In this document: positions 7,751-63,616 of the stretch, piece by piece
How positions within the stretch are numbered: the first letter of the stretch is position 1
How the letters are laid out: the number at the start of each line of letters is the position of its first letter
Origin: Alicyclobacillus sp. SO9
GTDB taxonomy: Bacteria > Bacillota > Bacilli > Alicyclobacillales > Alicyclobacillaceae
NCBI RefSeq assembly: GCF_016406125.1
Contig: NZ_CP066339.1
Coordinates: forward strand, 496,001 to 560,000
Direction of reading: 5' to 3'
Length of the DNA stretch: 64,000 nt
The notes under the pieces: model-generated
What the model saw: the letters and a program-made list of their open reading frames with translations, nothing else
What the model was told of the DNA's origin: nothing
The model's database searches: none
Made by a program: the position numbers and the translations under genes

Positions 7751-8357
7751 TAGGTGAATCAGTGCAAGTGGCATAAAGCAGAGAAAAATGAACAAAGGAA
7801 ATGCAACGTAGTACCTCGTTCCGGTACAACACTACTCGAGCGAGGCACAGATACATATTCTGTCGGACTCAACTCCGTTTTGAACGAAAAAGGTTCGGGA
7901 CCGCACGGCAGGCTGCGGTTGGCATCGTACGTCAGTCTGTTGTGGCAGCGCATTGCGGCAGTGTCCGCTGATGGTGACCGCTGATGGTGACCGCTGATGG
8001 TGACCGCTGATGGTATCGGAAGCGTCGGCTGTGGTATGATATACTCCGATGGGTATGAGTTTGTCTGCATGAGCATATAATATCTCTGCTCCCGTCTGCC
8101 GGGAGAGTCCGCCCAGCGGCAATCGCTTTTACATTTTGCGTCTCTCGTCAATACCTATAAGTATTCATGGATATATGTAAACATATGTAAAAATATGTGA
8201 ACACATTAGGCCAGCTCATATTGTGCAGACGGAACACAGTCACAAGGTTAGTTTCGCAAATACTATGGCCCGTACGTTTGGTATTTTGAATGCGCTATTT
8301 CTAAACGCTTTTGATCCCTTTATAATATGGGTACAACGTATATAGGAGGTGGCACAA
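7751..8357 (+). other. Long intergenic stretch with a 13-bp tandem repeat
   Basis: No credible gene. At 7965-8014 CCGCTGATGGTGA is repeated 3.8 times. The part at 8140-8340 is AT-rich and contains TATAAT at 8321-8326, about 30 bases before the next start codon, but no convincing -35 box at 16-18 bp. The open frames here on both strands lack ribosome-binding sites. Confidence 0.6.
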
Positions 8358-9026
8358 ATGGAACGATTCTATGATGAACGACATCAAGCTGTTCGCAGTG
8401 GATATATGAGTAAAGTGTACGGATGGATGTTCCTGGCGCTTGTCATTACTGCACTTGTATCATTGGCAACTGTGCAGTCTGTAGTAATGAGTACAATCGC
8501 GGTGAGAGGTTTTTGGCTCTTCTTCCTGGCGGCTTTTGGGATTGTGTTTTTCTTGTCTGCTCGCATTACAAAGATGAGTTCTGGAACCGCGGTTCTGTGG
8601 TTCTTAATTTACTCAGCTATTAACGGCATCTGGATTACACCTATTGTCTTTCGCTATACCGGAGAGACGGTGGCATTGGCGTTCGCGGTTTCAGCCCTCT
8701 CCTTTGGAGTGATGAGTGTTTATGGTGCTGTCACCAAAACTGATTTAACACGTATCGGAAGTCTTGCTTTCTTTGGCTTGATAGGGATTATCATTGCGTC
8801 GTTGCTGAACATGCTGTTCCGTTCAAGCGGCTTTGAGTTTATCATTTCCTATCTGGGCGTCGCCATCTTTACCATCTTGACCGCATGGGACACACAGCGC
8901 ATCAAAAACAATCCTGCGTATCAGCGTTACGCGATTATTGGTTCGCTTAGCCTGTACTTGGATTTCCTCAACATCTTCCTGTTCCTGCTGAATATTTTTG
9001 GCGGGGGCGGAGCCAGAAGAGGCTGA
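8358..9026 (+). CDS. Bax inhibitor-1 / YccA-family membrane protein
   Basis: 222 residues with about seven transmembrane segments filling the protein. The start at ATG 8358 is set by SD AGGAGG at 8344-8349; an upstream GTG overlaps that SD and is rejected. Family signatures are an N-terminal cytoplasmic segment, GIWITPIVFRYTGETVALAF in the middle, and the C-terminal TAWDTQRIKNNPAYQRYAIIGSLSLYLDFLNIFLFLLNIFGG block, whose acidic residues belong to the di-aspartyl pH-sensing site in the Bacillus homologue YetJ. The family is proposed to act as a pH-gated Ca2+ leak. Monocistronic, followed by a strong terminator. Confidence 0.93.
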   Translation: MERFYDERHQAVRSGYMSKVYGWMFLALVITALVSLATVQSVVMSTIAVRGFWLFFLAAFGIVFFLSARITKMSSGTAVLWFLIYSAINGIWITPIVFRYTGETVALAFAVSALSFGVMSVYGAVTKTDLTRIGSLAFFGLIGIIIASLLNMLFRSSGFEFIISYLGVAIFTILTAWDTQRIKNNPAYQRYAIIGSLSLYLDFLNIFLFLLNIFGGGGARRG

Positions 9027-27864: not shown

Positions 27865-27892
27865 CCGCAGCGGCCACAACCGCTGCGGTTGT
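27865..27892 (+). terminator. Terminator between convergent dps and lrgB
   Basis: CCGCAGCGG (27865-27873) pairs with CCGCTGCGG (27880-27888), followed by TTGTT on the plus strand and CTTCTTT on the minus strand. Confidence 0.65.
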
Positions 27893-28569
27893 TACATCCA
27901 GTGCATCAAAAGAGGTGCCAATACAACGGTAGAGACACCGTTTATAATCAGTGCAATGCTGGCAATCGTTCCTTCTAACTGCCCCATTTCAAATGCCCTT
28001 GAGGTGCCAATTGCGTGAGCTCCAGTCCCCATTAATGCACCTTGCGCAAACTTGCTTCGCAGCTTTAACCTTCGAATCAGCAGCGGCCCTGTCATGATAC
28101 CAACCAGGGCAGTAACAATTACAAAGACGGCTGTCAGTACCGGATTTCCGCCAATCGCAGCGGATGTGTCCATTGCCAGTGGGGTCGTAATCGACCTCGG
28201 TGCCAAACTGGCAGCAAGACCCTGCAGATGGAACAGGTCTGCAAACAGAACAGAGGTCGTGACGGCTGTGATACCGCCGAGAATAATGCTGGTCAGAAGC
28301 GGTACAGCATTACGTCGTAACACGGGAAAGTACTTGTAGAGAGGAATGGCAAAGGCCACCGTGGCCGGTTGCAGCATGAATTTAAGCCACTTAGCGCTGA
28401 CCCAGTATTCTTTATAGGACACATGAAGGCTCACCAAGATTGCTATCATGGCCAACAAACTTGTCAGAATTGGTGACAGGATTACCACACTCCATCGCTT
28501 GTACACAAGACGCGAGAGAAGAAAGACGGCAAGTGTAACTATGATTCCGAATACCGCCACCTTACACAT
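27892..28569 (-). CDS. lrgB: LrgB/CidB-family membrane protein
   Basis: 225 residues with about seven transmembrane segments. Family motifs include WVSAKWLKFMLQPATVAFAIPLYKY, LAPRSITTPLAMDTSAAIGGNPVLTAVFVIVTALVGIMTGP and GALMGTGAHAIGTSRAFEMGQLEGTIASIALIINGV. It pairs with LrgA (overlap 8 bp), forming the holin/antiholin-like system linked to murein hydrolase control, programmed lysis and, in Bacillus YwbHG and PftAB, pyruvate uptake. Confidence 0.93.
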   Translation of the reverse strand: MCKVAVFGIIVTLAVFLLSRLVYKRWSVVILSPILTSLLAMIAILVSLHVSYKEYWVSAKWLKFMLQPATVAFAIPLYKYFPVLRRNAVPLLTSIILGGITAVTTSVLFADLFHLQGLAASLAPRSITTPLAMDTSAAIGGNPVLTAVFVIVTALVGIMTGPLLIRRLKLRSKFAQGALMGTGAHAIGTSRAFEMGQLEGTIASIALIINGVSTVVLAPLLMHWM

Positions 28570-28951
28570 GTCTCCTTTCTTTTCCCCGCATCCAAAACTC
28601 TGTCAACACCCCGCTGATGAGCATGACACAGAGTGTGCTTGCTCCAATGACCAAGAGCAGACGCCAACCGTCTGTCTTTACTAATCCTCCATACTGGACA
28701 ATCCCGGTGGCCGACGGGACGAAAAACAGCAGCATCTCCGCCAACAGCAGGTTTGCTCCGAGTTCAAACCACTCTACCTTTACGATTTTTAATTGCAAAA
28801 GAAGAAAAAGCACTACGAGTCCAATGAGACTAGCGGGTAGATGAAGGTGGGTCACACGAACGATGAGTTCTCCGAGGAGACTCATAAGTGTCAAGAGAGT
28901 TACTTGAAGTACTGTCTTCCCAACAGTCTTGAGTACTGCACTCAAGTTCAT
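28562..28951 (-). CDS. lrgA: LrgA/CidA-family holin-like protein
   Basis: 129 residues from ATG 28951 (AGGAAGTG just upstream); an ATG nine codons earlier has no SD. Four transmembrane segments with the family block LPASLIGLVVLFLLLQLKIVKVEWFELGANLLLAEMLLFFVPSATGIVQY. It overlaps the start of lrgB, so the two are translationally coupled. No lytSR two-component genes are next to it. Confidence 0.92.
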   Translation of the reverse strand: MNLSAVLKTVGKTVLQVTLLTLMSLLGELIVRVTHLHLPASLIGLVVLFLLLQLKIVKVEWFELGANLLLAEMLLFFVPSATGIVQYGGLVKTDGWRLLLVIGASTLCVMLISGVLTEFWMRGKERRHV

Positions 28952-29127
28952 CACTTCCTGTGTTAATCTGCGCTGCATGGTGGGTGAGAGCTATATCGAT
29001 ACTAAATTATACAACCAACCTCTGCTTCTGATAAGCCGCTGGGACGTTGCATCTTAGCTTGCATTTGGACAAGGAAGCTCGGGAAGGGGGCATGAAGCAA
29101 TTGTCTTGTGTTCTTCTCGGAAGGGGG

Positions 29128-29283
29128 TTATCCACACGATTGGAGATTATGGTTAACCTCTCTATCCACAAATCGGTTGGTCATTTAGGTTGCTATTGCG
29201 GCTGATTTTTCACTTTGATAAGGTTATTCACAATCGTATCCACAGAGTTATACACAGGGTTATCCACAGATTTTCGTGGATAA
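29128..29283. promoter_or_regulatory. DnaA-box cluster 1
   Basis: Perfect TTATNCACA boxes lie at 29128-29136, 29224-29232, 29248-29256 and 29260-29268. One-mismatch boxes lie at 29162-29170, 29236-29244 and, on the reverse strand, 29275-29283. Four of them start exactly 12 bp apart (29224, 29236, 29248, 29260). No dnaA or dnaN is adjacent, so it resembles the regulatory DnaA-box clusters of Bacillus rather than oriC. It fills the ~530-bp gap between lrgA and folE. Confidence 0.75.
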
Positions 29284-29484
29284 GTGGACAAAACACAAGC
29301 CAAACACACCTATAAATATAAAAATTATGAATAAATTCCAATATAAGTATTACAATGGGGGTGTGTGGAATACGTGGAAGAAGTTTTGTTCTGATGGATA
29401 TGTTCGCTTGATTGACACAGGCTCGTCCTATAAGCTTAACTCTACAGACATTCACGTCTGGCTGCCAAGATGGGAGGAATGGGG

Positions 29485-30135
29485 ATGCGCCCTACTGATA
29501 TACAAACCAACATGATGGTTGATGCTGAACTTGAAGAAATGGACAGAACCATTCATGCGGAAAGTGAAGGAAGAAAAATGGATCACGAGAAGATAAAGCA
29601 GGCTGTAACGATGATTCTTGAAGCAGTGGGCGAAGACCCCAATCGCGAGGGACTTGTCGATACCCCGGCTCGAGTTGCAAGAATGTACGAAGAGATTTTT
29701 GCAGGGCTACACATGGACCCTGCCAGTGTATTGTCGGCTAAATTTCACGTTGATGAAGATGAAATGGTCTTCGTGAAAGACATTACGTTCTACTCTATGT
29801 GTGAACATCACTTGCTTCCGTTTTTTGGGAAGGCACATGTAGCTTATCTGCCCAGCAATGGCGTAGTCACCGGACTTTCCAAGTTGGCTCGTCTTGTGGA
29901 GGCAGTGGCGACACGCCCGCAGGTGCAGGAACGAATGACCAATGAGATTGCAGAGGTCCTGCACAGAGAACTGCAAACGCAGGGAGTTATGGTCATCGTA
30001 GAGGCGGAGCACTTGTGCATGAATATGAGAGGAGTACGCAAACCCGGCAGTCAAACCGTTACCATGGCTAAGCAGGGCAGGTACAATGATGAGCCTGCTT
30101 TAGCCGATCAGGTGTTTCGGATGTTGAAAAGCTGA
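29485..30135 (+). CDS. folE: GTP cyclohydrolase I
   Basis: 216 residues from ATG 29485, placed by SD GGGAGGA at 29472-29478; two upstream ATGs overlap or precede it. An N-terminal extension of about 30 residues precedes the T-fold domain. Zn ligands Cys and His lie in FYSMCEHHLLPFFGKAHVAY and the second Cys in AEHLCMNMRGVRKPGS; the substrate loop GLSKLARLVEAVATRPQVQERMT is intact. It converts GTP to dihydroneopterin triphosphate for folate synthesis. Monocistronic here, downstream of the DnaA-box cluster. Confidence 0.95.
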   Translation: MRPTDIQTNMMVDAELEEMDRTIHAESEGRKMDHEKIKQAVTMILEAVGEDPNREGLVDTPARVARMYEEIFAGLHMDPASVLSAKFHVDEDEMVFVKDITFYSMCEHHLLPFFGKAHVAYLPSNGVVTGLSKLARLVEAVATRPQVQERMTNEIAEVLHRELQTQGVMVIVEAEHLCMNMRGVRKPGSQTVTMAKQGRYNDEPALADQVFRMLKS

Positions 30136-30201
30136 TTCTACAGCAGAATGTACCGGCAATTGTACCGTAACTTTCGGGGAACAAGTGAGGGAAATTGAAG
30201 C

Positions 30202-42489: not shown

Positions 42490-43022
42490 ATTCGTGGCAT
42501 GTATTCCTTGGGTTTCTGATTGCCAATTTACTCGGCTACGGCGGGGGGCCTTCGACGATTCCGCTGATGCAGTCCCAGATTGTGACGCATTATCAGTGGA
42601 TGAACAATGCCCAATTTGCAAATCTGTTGGCTATCGGCAATGCCCTTCCTGGTCCGATTGCAACGAAAATCGCAGCAGCCGTGGGGTATCAGGAAGGGGG
42701 GGCTCTAGGACTTCTTCTCGGCATTGTGGCTACGGTTGTGCCGTCTGCTGTTGCACTTATTCTTATGTTAAAGGTGCTGAACAAATTCCGTCAGTCACGC
42801 GTCGTAAAAGGCATGACCATGGTTGTGCAGCCAGTGATAGCCATTCTGATGATACTGTTGACTTGGCAGGTGTTTCACGATTCCACTAGAGGGTTGGGCA
42901 TTCTGCAGACCGTCATTATTGCGCTTGTTTCGTTATGGGCTATTAAGGTGCGGAAGATTCACCCTGCACTTGTGATTGTTGCCGCTTTTGTCTACGGGGG
43001 AGTTGTCTTGCCGTTAATCTAG
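42486..43022 (+). CDS. Chromate-transporter family protein, second half of a ChrA pair
   Basis: 178 residues, GTG start overlapping the previous stop (GTGA). Same signature, NLLGYGGGPSTIPLMQSQIV and LAIGNALPGPIATKIAAAVGYQEGG, with a predicted membrane topology opposite to its partner, as is usual for split ChrA. The translational overlap supports a stoichiometric heterodimer. Confidence 0.92.
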   Translation: MNSWHVFLGFLIANLLGYGGGPSTIPLMQSQIVTHYQWMNNAQFANLLAIGNALPGPIATKIAAAVGYQEGGALGLLLGIVATVVPSAVALILMLKVLNKFRQSRVVKGMTMVVQPVIAILMILLTWQVFHDSTRGLGILQTVIIALVSLWAIKVRKIHPALVIVAAFVYGGVVLPLI

Positions 43023-43055: not shown

Positions 43056-43148
43056 CTATCCACAACCCATAAATGCACGCCATAAAAAGAAATCCACAGG
43101 GTTATGCACAGAAAACTGTGGATAACTGTGGATAAATCCTGTGGATTA
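43056..43148. promoter_or_regulatory. DnaA-box cluster 2
   Basis: Perfect TTATNCACA boxes: 43102-43110 (plus) and TGTGGATAA at 43117-43125 and 43127-43135 (minus). One-mismatch boxes at 43056-43064 and 43140-43148. The cluster lies between convergent chrA and proC genes, so it is not a promoter region. Confidence 0.7.
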
Positions 43149-43176: not shown

Positions 43177-44004
43177 TTATCGTTTAGCGTAAGTTCTCCC
43201 GAGCTCTTCTGACCGTTGTGCTGCAGCCAGAATGGCCTTTCCGATAGACTGTCGAACCTGGTTTTTTTCCAGCACATCCACACCTGCTGCCGTGGTTCCG
43301 CCTGGAGACATGACCCGCAATCTTAACTCTCGCGGAGAGAGTTCCCATTCATCGAGTGTACGAACGGTACCAGTGAGCGTGGTGAGCAACATGCGTCTGG
43401 CCAGTTCGGGTGTAAAGCCCACGCTGACAGCGGCATCTTCTATAGCTTCGAGCATGTAACACAGAAACCCCGGTCCGCTGCCGGAAAGAGCGGTCACTGC
43501 ATCCATCATATCCTCCGGCATCTCCACGGCATCTCCCAGCTGTTCTAACAGACGTAAAACGACGGTTCGCTCTTCCCGACCGACATCTTCGCTGAATGCC
43601 ACTGCGGTGGTACCTGCGGATACAGATACGGGCAGGTTGGGCATCGTTCGAATGGCTGCAGCTTTTCCCTCACTGTCACGTTCCAACTGAGCGAGACCTA
43701 CACCCGCAGCGAATGAAATGAGTAATTGGCCGTCGAGAAACGGAAGGGCCGACGACAGAGCTTGACTGACATCAGCCGGCTTGACGGCCAAAGCAACGAT
43801 GTCGGCATGCTGTATGTCCGAAAACGAAGTTGCCTGACGCACACCGTAGCCCGCCGTCAACTGTTCAAGCTTGTCACGCCGAGACTTGTTTAAGACCCGA
43901 ATCTGTTCTGGAGGGACAACACCACCCTTTGTAATGCCTCTGATGAACGCTTCAGACATAGAGCCGGCTCCAATGACGAAAATCTCTCCGCCTTTACTCA
44001 CCAT
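43177..44004 (-). CDS. proC: Pyrroline-5-carboxylate reductase
   Basis: 275 residues, ATG start with SD AGGAGG. N-terminal Rossmann fold IFVIGAGSMSEAFIRGI, NADP-side motif VLNKSRRDKLEQL, and the C-terminal dimerisation domain with ALSGSGPGFLCYMLEAIEDAAVSVG and LRLRVMSPGGTTAAGVDVLE. It makes proline from P5C with NAD(P)H. A T-box leader precedes it, so expression should rise when tRNA-Pro is uncharged. Confidence 0.95.
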   Translation of the reverse strand: MVSKGGEIFVIGAGSMSEAFIRGITKGGVVPPEQIRVLNKSRRDKLEQLTAGYGVRQATSFSDIQHADIVALAVKPADVSQALSSALPFLDGQLLISFAAGVGLAQLERDSEGKAAAIRTMPNLPVSVSAGTTAVAFSEDVGREERTVVLRLLEQLGDAVEMPEDMMDAVTALSGSGPGFLCYMLEAIEDAAVSVGFTPELARRMLLTTLTGTVRTLDEWELSPRELRLRVMSPGGTTAAGVDVLEKNQVRQSIGKAILAAAQRSEELGRTYAKR

Positions 44005-61656: not shown

Positions 61657-61852
61657 GTAGTGAATGTGAATCCGGTCACTTTCAGGACAGATTCCCCCTC
61701 GTTTGCGGAAGTCATTTTATTGTTAAAGAACTGCCGTTTGTCGTCGCCAGCATTGCTGTGATACTGTTATGACAGGTTTTATGAGGCTGTTCGAAAAGCT
61801 ACCGTCTTTTCGGACACGTACCTTATGTGTCCTCGTGAAGGAGGGGTCCGCC

Positions 61853-63616
61853 CTGTCATATCAAGCTCTTTATCGAATGTGGCGGCCGCAGACGTTCCGT
61901 GACCTTATTGGTCAACCCCATGTTAAACAAACACTGGTTAACGCACTGCAGCGCGGGCAGGTTGCCCATGCCTATCTATTTGCCGGACCGCGGGGTACCG
62001 GGAAAACCAGTGCGGCTAAAATTCTTGCGAAAGCCGTGAATTGTTTAAATCCCCTGGAAGGCGAGCCGTGCAATGAGTGTGAAGCCTGTACAGCCGTTCA
62101 AAACGGGACTGGGATGGATGTAGAGGAAATTGATGCGGCCTCCAATCGCGGCGTAGATGAAATCAGACAGCTTCGTGAAAAAGTGCAGTATGCGCCCACT
62201 GGGCTGACGCGCAAAGTGTACATCGTTGATGAGGTTCATATGTTGACCACGGAAGCGTTTAATGCGCTCCTGAAGACGCTGGAAGAACCCCCCAACCACA
62301 CCCTGTTTGTTCTCGCAACGACTGAGCCTCACAAAATCCCAGGGACTATCATTTCTCGCTGTCAGCGGTTTGATTTTCGTCGGATTGCACCAGAACTCAT
62401 GGTGGAACGACTGGAGACTGTGTGTAGTACTGAAGGCTGGACGCGCAGCGAAGAAGCCCTGTGGAAAATTGCTCAGGCAGCAGACGGCGGGTTGCGTGAT
62501 GCTCTTGGACTGTTGGAGCAGACGTCCGCGTTTGGCGGGGGAGACATCAGCAGTGAGAATGCAGCGCACGTAATGGGAGGGGTTGAGTCCGTTCTGTTAG
62601 TGCAATTGCTGCAAGCCATGTGGCAACGTGACATGGCTAAGGTGTTGAATTTGCTTGGGGACTGGTATGAAAGGGGCAAGGACGCTACAAGAATCGTGCA
62701 TGATCTGCTGCAGATTCTACGCGATTTGGTCATCATCAAAATGTCTCCTTCGGATAGTCTGCCAGGTCATCTTCGACTGTCTTCGCTGCAGGACGCAGCG
62801 CAGCAACTGAGCGTTCCGTGGTTAATGCAAGGCGTCAAGAAACTTGGGGAGACATACACCGGTCTGCGGTATGTAGATGACCCCAGGCTTGCTTTGGAGG
62901 CTGCCTTACTGGCATTGGTACCACGAGATGAAGATACTGAGGAGCGTCTCCATTCGGCACATCAGGCAAGCGGAGTAAAGTCCGAATCAGGCGTTACGGT
63001 ACCAGGTAAAGCTGCAGACAAGGCGTCAGCGAGTACGCGCTCAGATGCCAATGATTCGCGGGAACCGGATGAACCCGCAGGGGCCACAGGGCCGTCTGGA
63101 CGTCAAGGCCGCGAGGCAGCACTTGCACCAGAGCCGAGCGCGACAACGTTGGCGAAGCCCGCTGCGAAAAAGAATGGACGCACTTCCGAATCAAGGAAGC
63201 AGGAAGTTCTGAGAAAACTTGCAACTGAAGCAGACAACGAGGTACTCGAACGAGTACAATCAGAGTGGCAGCAAATTCTCCAACGGGTAAAAGATGAGCG
63301 AATTCAAACCCATGCCTGGCTGATGAACGGACAGCCTGTTTTAGCCACAAAAAATGCAGTTGTGGTTGTGTTTAGCAGCCGGTTTCACCGTGATGCAGTC
63401 ATGAAACCAGACGAGCGTACGGTCATCGAACAGGCCTTTGCCCAAGCAGCGGGCATTTCACTTCAAATGCTTGCCCTGTTAAAAGAGGACTGGGAAAAAT
63501 TTCAGACACCGACAGAGCCTGAACCAAGTGCTGCTTTGGCTACAGAGTCAGACCTTGCTGAGAAAGCGGTTCGGGTTTTCGGGAAAGACTTGGTTGAAAT
63601 TATTGACGGAGAGTGA
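61853..63616 (+). CDS. dnaX: DNA polymerase III subunit gamma/tau, apparent CTG start
   Basis: 587 residues from CTG 61853. SD AAGGAGG (61838-61844) is eight bases before this codon, and the product then begins (M)[11 protein letters not shown] exactly as in other Bacilli. The nearest alternatives are a GTG at 61835 that overlaps the SD region and a distant ATG at 61769 that would add unrelated residues. AAA+ clamp-loader with Walker A GPRGTGKT (45-52), zinc Cys64/73/76/79, Walker [10 protein letters not shown] and sensor [10 protein letters not shown]. The C-terminal tau region is linked by a Ser/Ala/Glu-rich stretch. Confidence 0.93.

Follow-up and report, generated by a model that had tools for sequence, protein, structure and literature searches.

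The divergent gap between lrgA (- strand) and folE (+ strand) in Alicyclobacillus sp. SO9 contains a dense group of DnaA boxes (cluster 1). We regard it as probably a lineage-specific chromosomal DnaA-box cluster (DBC) outside oriC, in the sense used for Bacillus subtilis, that restrains initiation by titration. It is very likely that DnaA binds the boxes. The earlier note had proposed a regulatory off-origin cluster of the Bacillus type, and this is the reading best supported by the box statistics, the distance to oriC, and the clusters of relatives; the part that placed oriC nearby did not hold. Unless a contig is named, positions refer to the window, the whole stretch of 64,000 nucleotides that was analysed (C1:496001-560000 of the main contig, which has 5,196,104 bases).

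DnaA boxes were defined as matches to TTATNCACA with at most one mismatch, and perfect boxes as those with none. The box scan reproduced the positions and mismatches of the seven boxes, four perfect and three with one mismatch, that had been described in 156 bp (29128-29283), as well as the four starts at steps of exactly 12 bp (29224, 29236, 29248, 29260). An eighth, weak box lies in an AT-rich stretch 3' of this array (82% A+T at 29305-29354).

29128-29136, + strand, TTATCCACA, perfect box
29162-29170, + strand, CTATCCACA, box with one mismatch
29224-29232, + strand, TTATTCACA, perfect box, unit 1 of the 12-bp array
29236-29244, + strand, GTATCCACA, box with one mismatch, unit 2 of the array
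29248-29256, + strand, TTATACACA, perfect box, unit 3 of the array
29260-29268, + strand, TTATCCACA, perfect box, unit 4 of the array
29275-29283, - strand, TTATCCACG, box with one mismatch, on the strand opposite to the array
29326-29334, - strand, TTATTCATA, eighth, weak box with one mismatch, inside the AT-rich stretch

The density of consensus boxes is far beyond chance. Counting in 2 Mb of this chromosome gave 64 boxes that are perfect and 1649 with one mismatch; with these densities, a Poisson model predicts 3.5e-6 occurrences per genome of at least four perfect boxes in 156 bp, and 3.2e-5 of at least seven boxes that are perfect or have one mismatch. The 12-bp pair pattern TTATNCACANNNNTATNCACA has two matches in the 5.29 Mb genome, both in cluster 1, and none in the reversed control. 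The box TTATCCACA is also found at the genome's own oriC (C1:5195740, 5195973, 5196014).

A second group of boxes, which the earlier note did not mention, lies 14 kb beyond cluster 1. This cluster 2 (43056-43148) has three perfect boxes and two with one mismatch:

43056, + strand, box with one mismatch
43102, + strand, perfect box
43117, - strand, perfect box
43127, - strand, perfect box
43140, - strand, box with one mismatch

It is located between the convergent genes chrA2 (+ strand, ending at 43022) and proC (43177-44004, - strand), and promoter control is therefore not expected there. The sequence is a nested inverted repeat (AATCCACAGG ... CCTGTGGATT) with a predicted RNA hairpin of -26.5 kcal/mol; since such a repeat could form a strong RNA hairpin, cluster 2 might alternatively be a terminator. 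Among the 191 perfect boxes of the whole genome, closely paired ones occur only in cluster 1, cluster 2, and oriC (perfect-pair patterns in all orientations; perfect boxes were listed up to 2.93 Mb and the remainder was scanned by pair patterns). The one-mismatch scan, which covered the chromosome outside C1:60001-480000, 580001-2920000, and 4920001-5156104, revealed, in the 2 Mb of the left arm that it included, only one weak group. Elsewhere in the window, two TTATCCACT sites (11308 and 11320) are also exactly 12 bp apart, in coding sequence at the end of an S9-peptidase-like gene.

Neither dnaA nor dnaN adjoins cluster 1, as had been observed before. The genes dnaA-dnaN-recF-gyrB-gyrA, as named from sequence, begin at C1:1, and the other end of the contig carries the yidC/jag/mnmE/mnmG/rsmG/noc/parAB side, named in the same way. 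Boxes flank dnaA on both sides (C1:5195683-5196056 and 1385-1489), and the dnaA-dnaN gap contains a DnaA-trio run (TAATAGTAATAG) at ~C1:1493. GC skew is positive in the first 60 kb (+0.071) and at 480-580 kb (+0.062), and negative over 2.92-4.92 Mb (-0.070) and in the final 40 kb (-0.098); its sign changes at dnaA and there is no switch inside the window. The boxes on both sides of dnaA, the trio, and the skew switch together place oriC at dnaA. Cluster 1, at C1:525128, is thus 525 kb from oriC, and the earlier idea that the origin is not far must be abandoned. This idea had been drawn from a dnaX-recR block, which is indeed found at the window's right end (dnaX at 61769-63616, followed by ebfC and the start of recR); given the distance, the block is no origin marker in this genome. 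A DnaA-trio was looked for at clusters 1 and 2 and found at neither. Position, GC skew, and the missing trio rule out cluster 1 as a replication origin.

The genes next to cluster 1 are the following:

27892-28569, lrgB, after lrgA
28562-28978, - strand, lrgA (PF03788), divergent neighbour of cluster 1
29470-30135, + strand, folE, GTP cyclohydrolase I (PF01227), divergent neighbour, with a real start that may be at ~29578

The best named match of FolE is in Alicyclobacillus sacchari (69%). An RNA element was rejected, as no Rfam match beyond chance level was found in 28500-30200, and so was a plasmid or phage source of the segment, as there was no similar DNA among 72,556 plasmid and 50,697 phage records. 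The earlier note had proposed that a lack of boxes in orthologous intergenic regions would count against a functional cluster. In the compared set, which consists of family genomes with the host's genus represented by this genome alone, no box cluster was found at folE or proC (29 relatives each), and a set of 80 named folE loci likewise had none. The same is true of lrgB in 29 relatives, except for loci L306 and L307 (genus g5), where lrgAB abuts the true oriC. However, among the genomes compared the lrgA/folE junction itself was seen solely in this one, and the test is not cleanly applicable. In L306 and L307 the order is lrgA-lrgB-oriC-dnaA; this genome has the rpmH/yidC side there.

Off-origin clusters are frequent in the family. 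A search for two perfect boxes on one strand, separated by 1-12 bp, was positive in 35 of 41 family genomes, and the same search in the reversed control of the 41 genomes gave one match in total. Some of the relatives' pairs are at oriC (L141-L143, L152-L154) and others at mtnW/mtnX near asnB-tadA-dnaX (L156-L159). In 20 of the 40 relatives (genomes G001, 2, 3, 5, 9-13, 15, 21-23, 26, 28, 29, 32, 33, 36, and 40), a perfect pair lies ~0.1-0.85 kb past the 3' end of tsaD (gcp), for an estimated chance rate of ~1e-3 per genome. All 20 were placed by coordinates and the sequences of 14 were read.

Clusters 3' of tsaD: loci L160-L170, L126, L130, L137, L138, L140, L144-L146, L148-L150, L155

Their position matches the strong DnaA peak at gcp/ydiF of B. 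subtilis, and in two genomes (G005 and G012) the cluster separates tsaD from a convergent ABC-F gene, as at gcp-ydiF, where DnaA binding has been measured, with 10 sites and strong binding of ATP-DnaA (PMC4447404). In SO9, tsaD is at C1:4793054-4794064, and the region past its 3' end holds neither perfect nor one-mismatch boxes. This genome and G021 have a tsaD neighbour in common, an ABC transporter gene whose products are 71% identical, and G021 has nine boxes at the site that is empty here. The shared neighbour, with boxes in one genome and not in the other, points to a loss: SO9 has most likely lost its tsaD cluster, which cluster 1 possibly replaces.

Other box groups were seen in the relatives. 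The one-mismatch box TCATCCACA occurs eight times next to the tsaD cluster of G001, at intervals of 16-17 bp (L126, 1244-1368). In the large genus g2, a box cluster occupies the gap preceding mtnW (L156-L158, ~8258-8390), 3 kb from asnB-tadA-dnaX; in L157 this gap lies between an mtnD-like gene of the ARD family and mtnW. The nearby mtnX pair (L127 and others) was discarded as evidence on DnaA, since it sits within coding sequence and its conservation is uninformative in this respect.

The 12-bp phasing, whose conservation the earlier note had proposed to check, recurs in part. Same-strand distances in the relatives' tsaD clusters, which are orthologous and hence not independent, include 13 pairs at 12 bp, 17 at 21 bp, and 10 at 9 bp, and in the relatives' oriCs 12 bp is the commonest same-strand distance (10 pairs). 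A run of four boxes at this spacing was seen only in cluster 1 among the clusters compared. On these distances, the 12-bp spacing is a habit of the family's DnaA arrays, not a peculiarity of the locus.

If cluster 1 acts by titration, DnaA would occupy its boxes and ATP-DnaA would form a head-to-tail oligomer on the array, whose four boxes share one orientation and follow each other in 12-bp steps; in Escherichia coli, a row of co-oriented boxes favours such oligomers (PMC10316083). Since cluster 1 lies about a fifth along the right replichore, it would be doubled some time after initiation. The doubled clusters 1 and 2 would then sequester more DnaA, leaving less free ATP-DnaA at oriC and hindering premature re-initiation. 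According to a review (PMC5295017), B. subtilis lacking six off-origin DBCs initiates early, and restoring one of them at various locations partly relieves this. Several observations support titration: the box content far beyond chance, the match between boxes of cluster 1 and those of its own oriC, the restriction of closely paired perfect boxes to two places outside oriC, the convergent intergenic position of cluster 2, the tsaD clusters in half of the relatives, the 12-bp same-strand spacing in these and in the relatives' oriCs, and the early initiation of the B. subtilis mutant. It is weakened by the lack of conservation at the relatives' folE, lrgAB, and proC, by the location of cluster 1 within a divergent promoter region, and by the same review, which judges that DBCs play a minor part in B. 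subtilis.

This location raises the question of a DnaA-dependent switch of folE and/or lrgAB, through which folate synthesis or the expression of LrgAB would follow the state of replication. DnaA acts as a transcription regulator at sda and ywlC of B. subtilis, cluster 1 is in a divergent intergenic region, and there is a weak promoter-like site for lrgA at 29034-29006 (- strand, 10/12 matches). Yet the nearest box is ~94 bp upstream of the -35 element of this site, the promoter scan found no + strand promoter-like site near cluster 1 (three sites in total, for 1.7 expected), the relatives' folE and lrgAB lack boxes, and cluster 2 is away from promoters. Such a switch is possible but less likely than titration.

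Two further explanations seem much less probable. The gene order of genus g5 and the AT-rich stretch after the array could suggest that lrgAB and the boxes stem from an oriC fragment, as a relic or duplicated origin. This is the most improbable reading, as the boxes here are upstream of lrgA and not downstream of lrgB, the window has no skew switch, and neither cluster has the DnaA-trio that the genome's own dnaA-dnaN gap does have. That the boxes are a functionless product of chance or mutation, for instance through tandem duplication of a short, 12-bp unit, would fit the lack of conservation at this junction in other species, but it is very unlikely in view of the expectation of 3.5e-6 per genome and of the second cluster 14 kb away. 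Moreover, the array units are not alike beyond the box itself, and the boxes at 29128, 29162, and 29275 do not belong to the array.

Three known systems are most similar to cluster 1. The off-origin clusters of B. subtilis are at sda, ywlC, ywcI, yydA, trmE, and gcp/ydiF. Cluster 1 resembles them in that a number of consensus boxes are crowded into a short intergenic segment away from oriC, but differs by its position at lrgA/folE, by its four boxes in strict 12-bp register, and by its host genome, where the gcp/tsaD position, the one known position checked, is empty. Position is not strictly defining, since re-inserted DBCs function elsewhere (PMC5295017). With the family's tsaD clusters (L160-L170) it shares the same boxes, a 12-bp same-strand spacing among others, and an intergenic, off-origin location, while its neighbour genes are different. 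In its proposed role it is comparable to datA of E. coli, which likewise lies off-origin, carries DnaA boxes, and reduces the amount of active DnaA. A difference concerns IHF, which Bacillota are not known to possess. The E. coli locus requires IHF and promotes ATP hydrolysis (PMC5295017).

In the papers searched, we found no earlier description of an off-origin DnaA-box cluster in this lineage. Cluster 1 adds one, at a place where our literature search returned no known cluster, and the comparison shows that B. subtilis shares its gcp/tsaD cluster with the host's family. Clusters 1 and 2 are 525 and 539 kb from oriC; the tsaD site, on the other arm, is at a roughly similar distance of 403 kb. 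We tentatively consider that box clusters might turn over like regulatory modules, the ancient tsaD cluster having been lost and a new phased titration array built. If this were true, selection would keep dosage and distance rather than neighbour genes. This genome provides a natural case of loss and gain in which DnaA titration can be set against the regulation of neighbouring genes.
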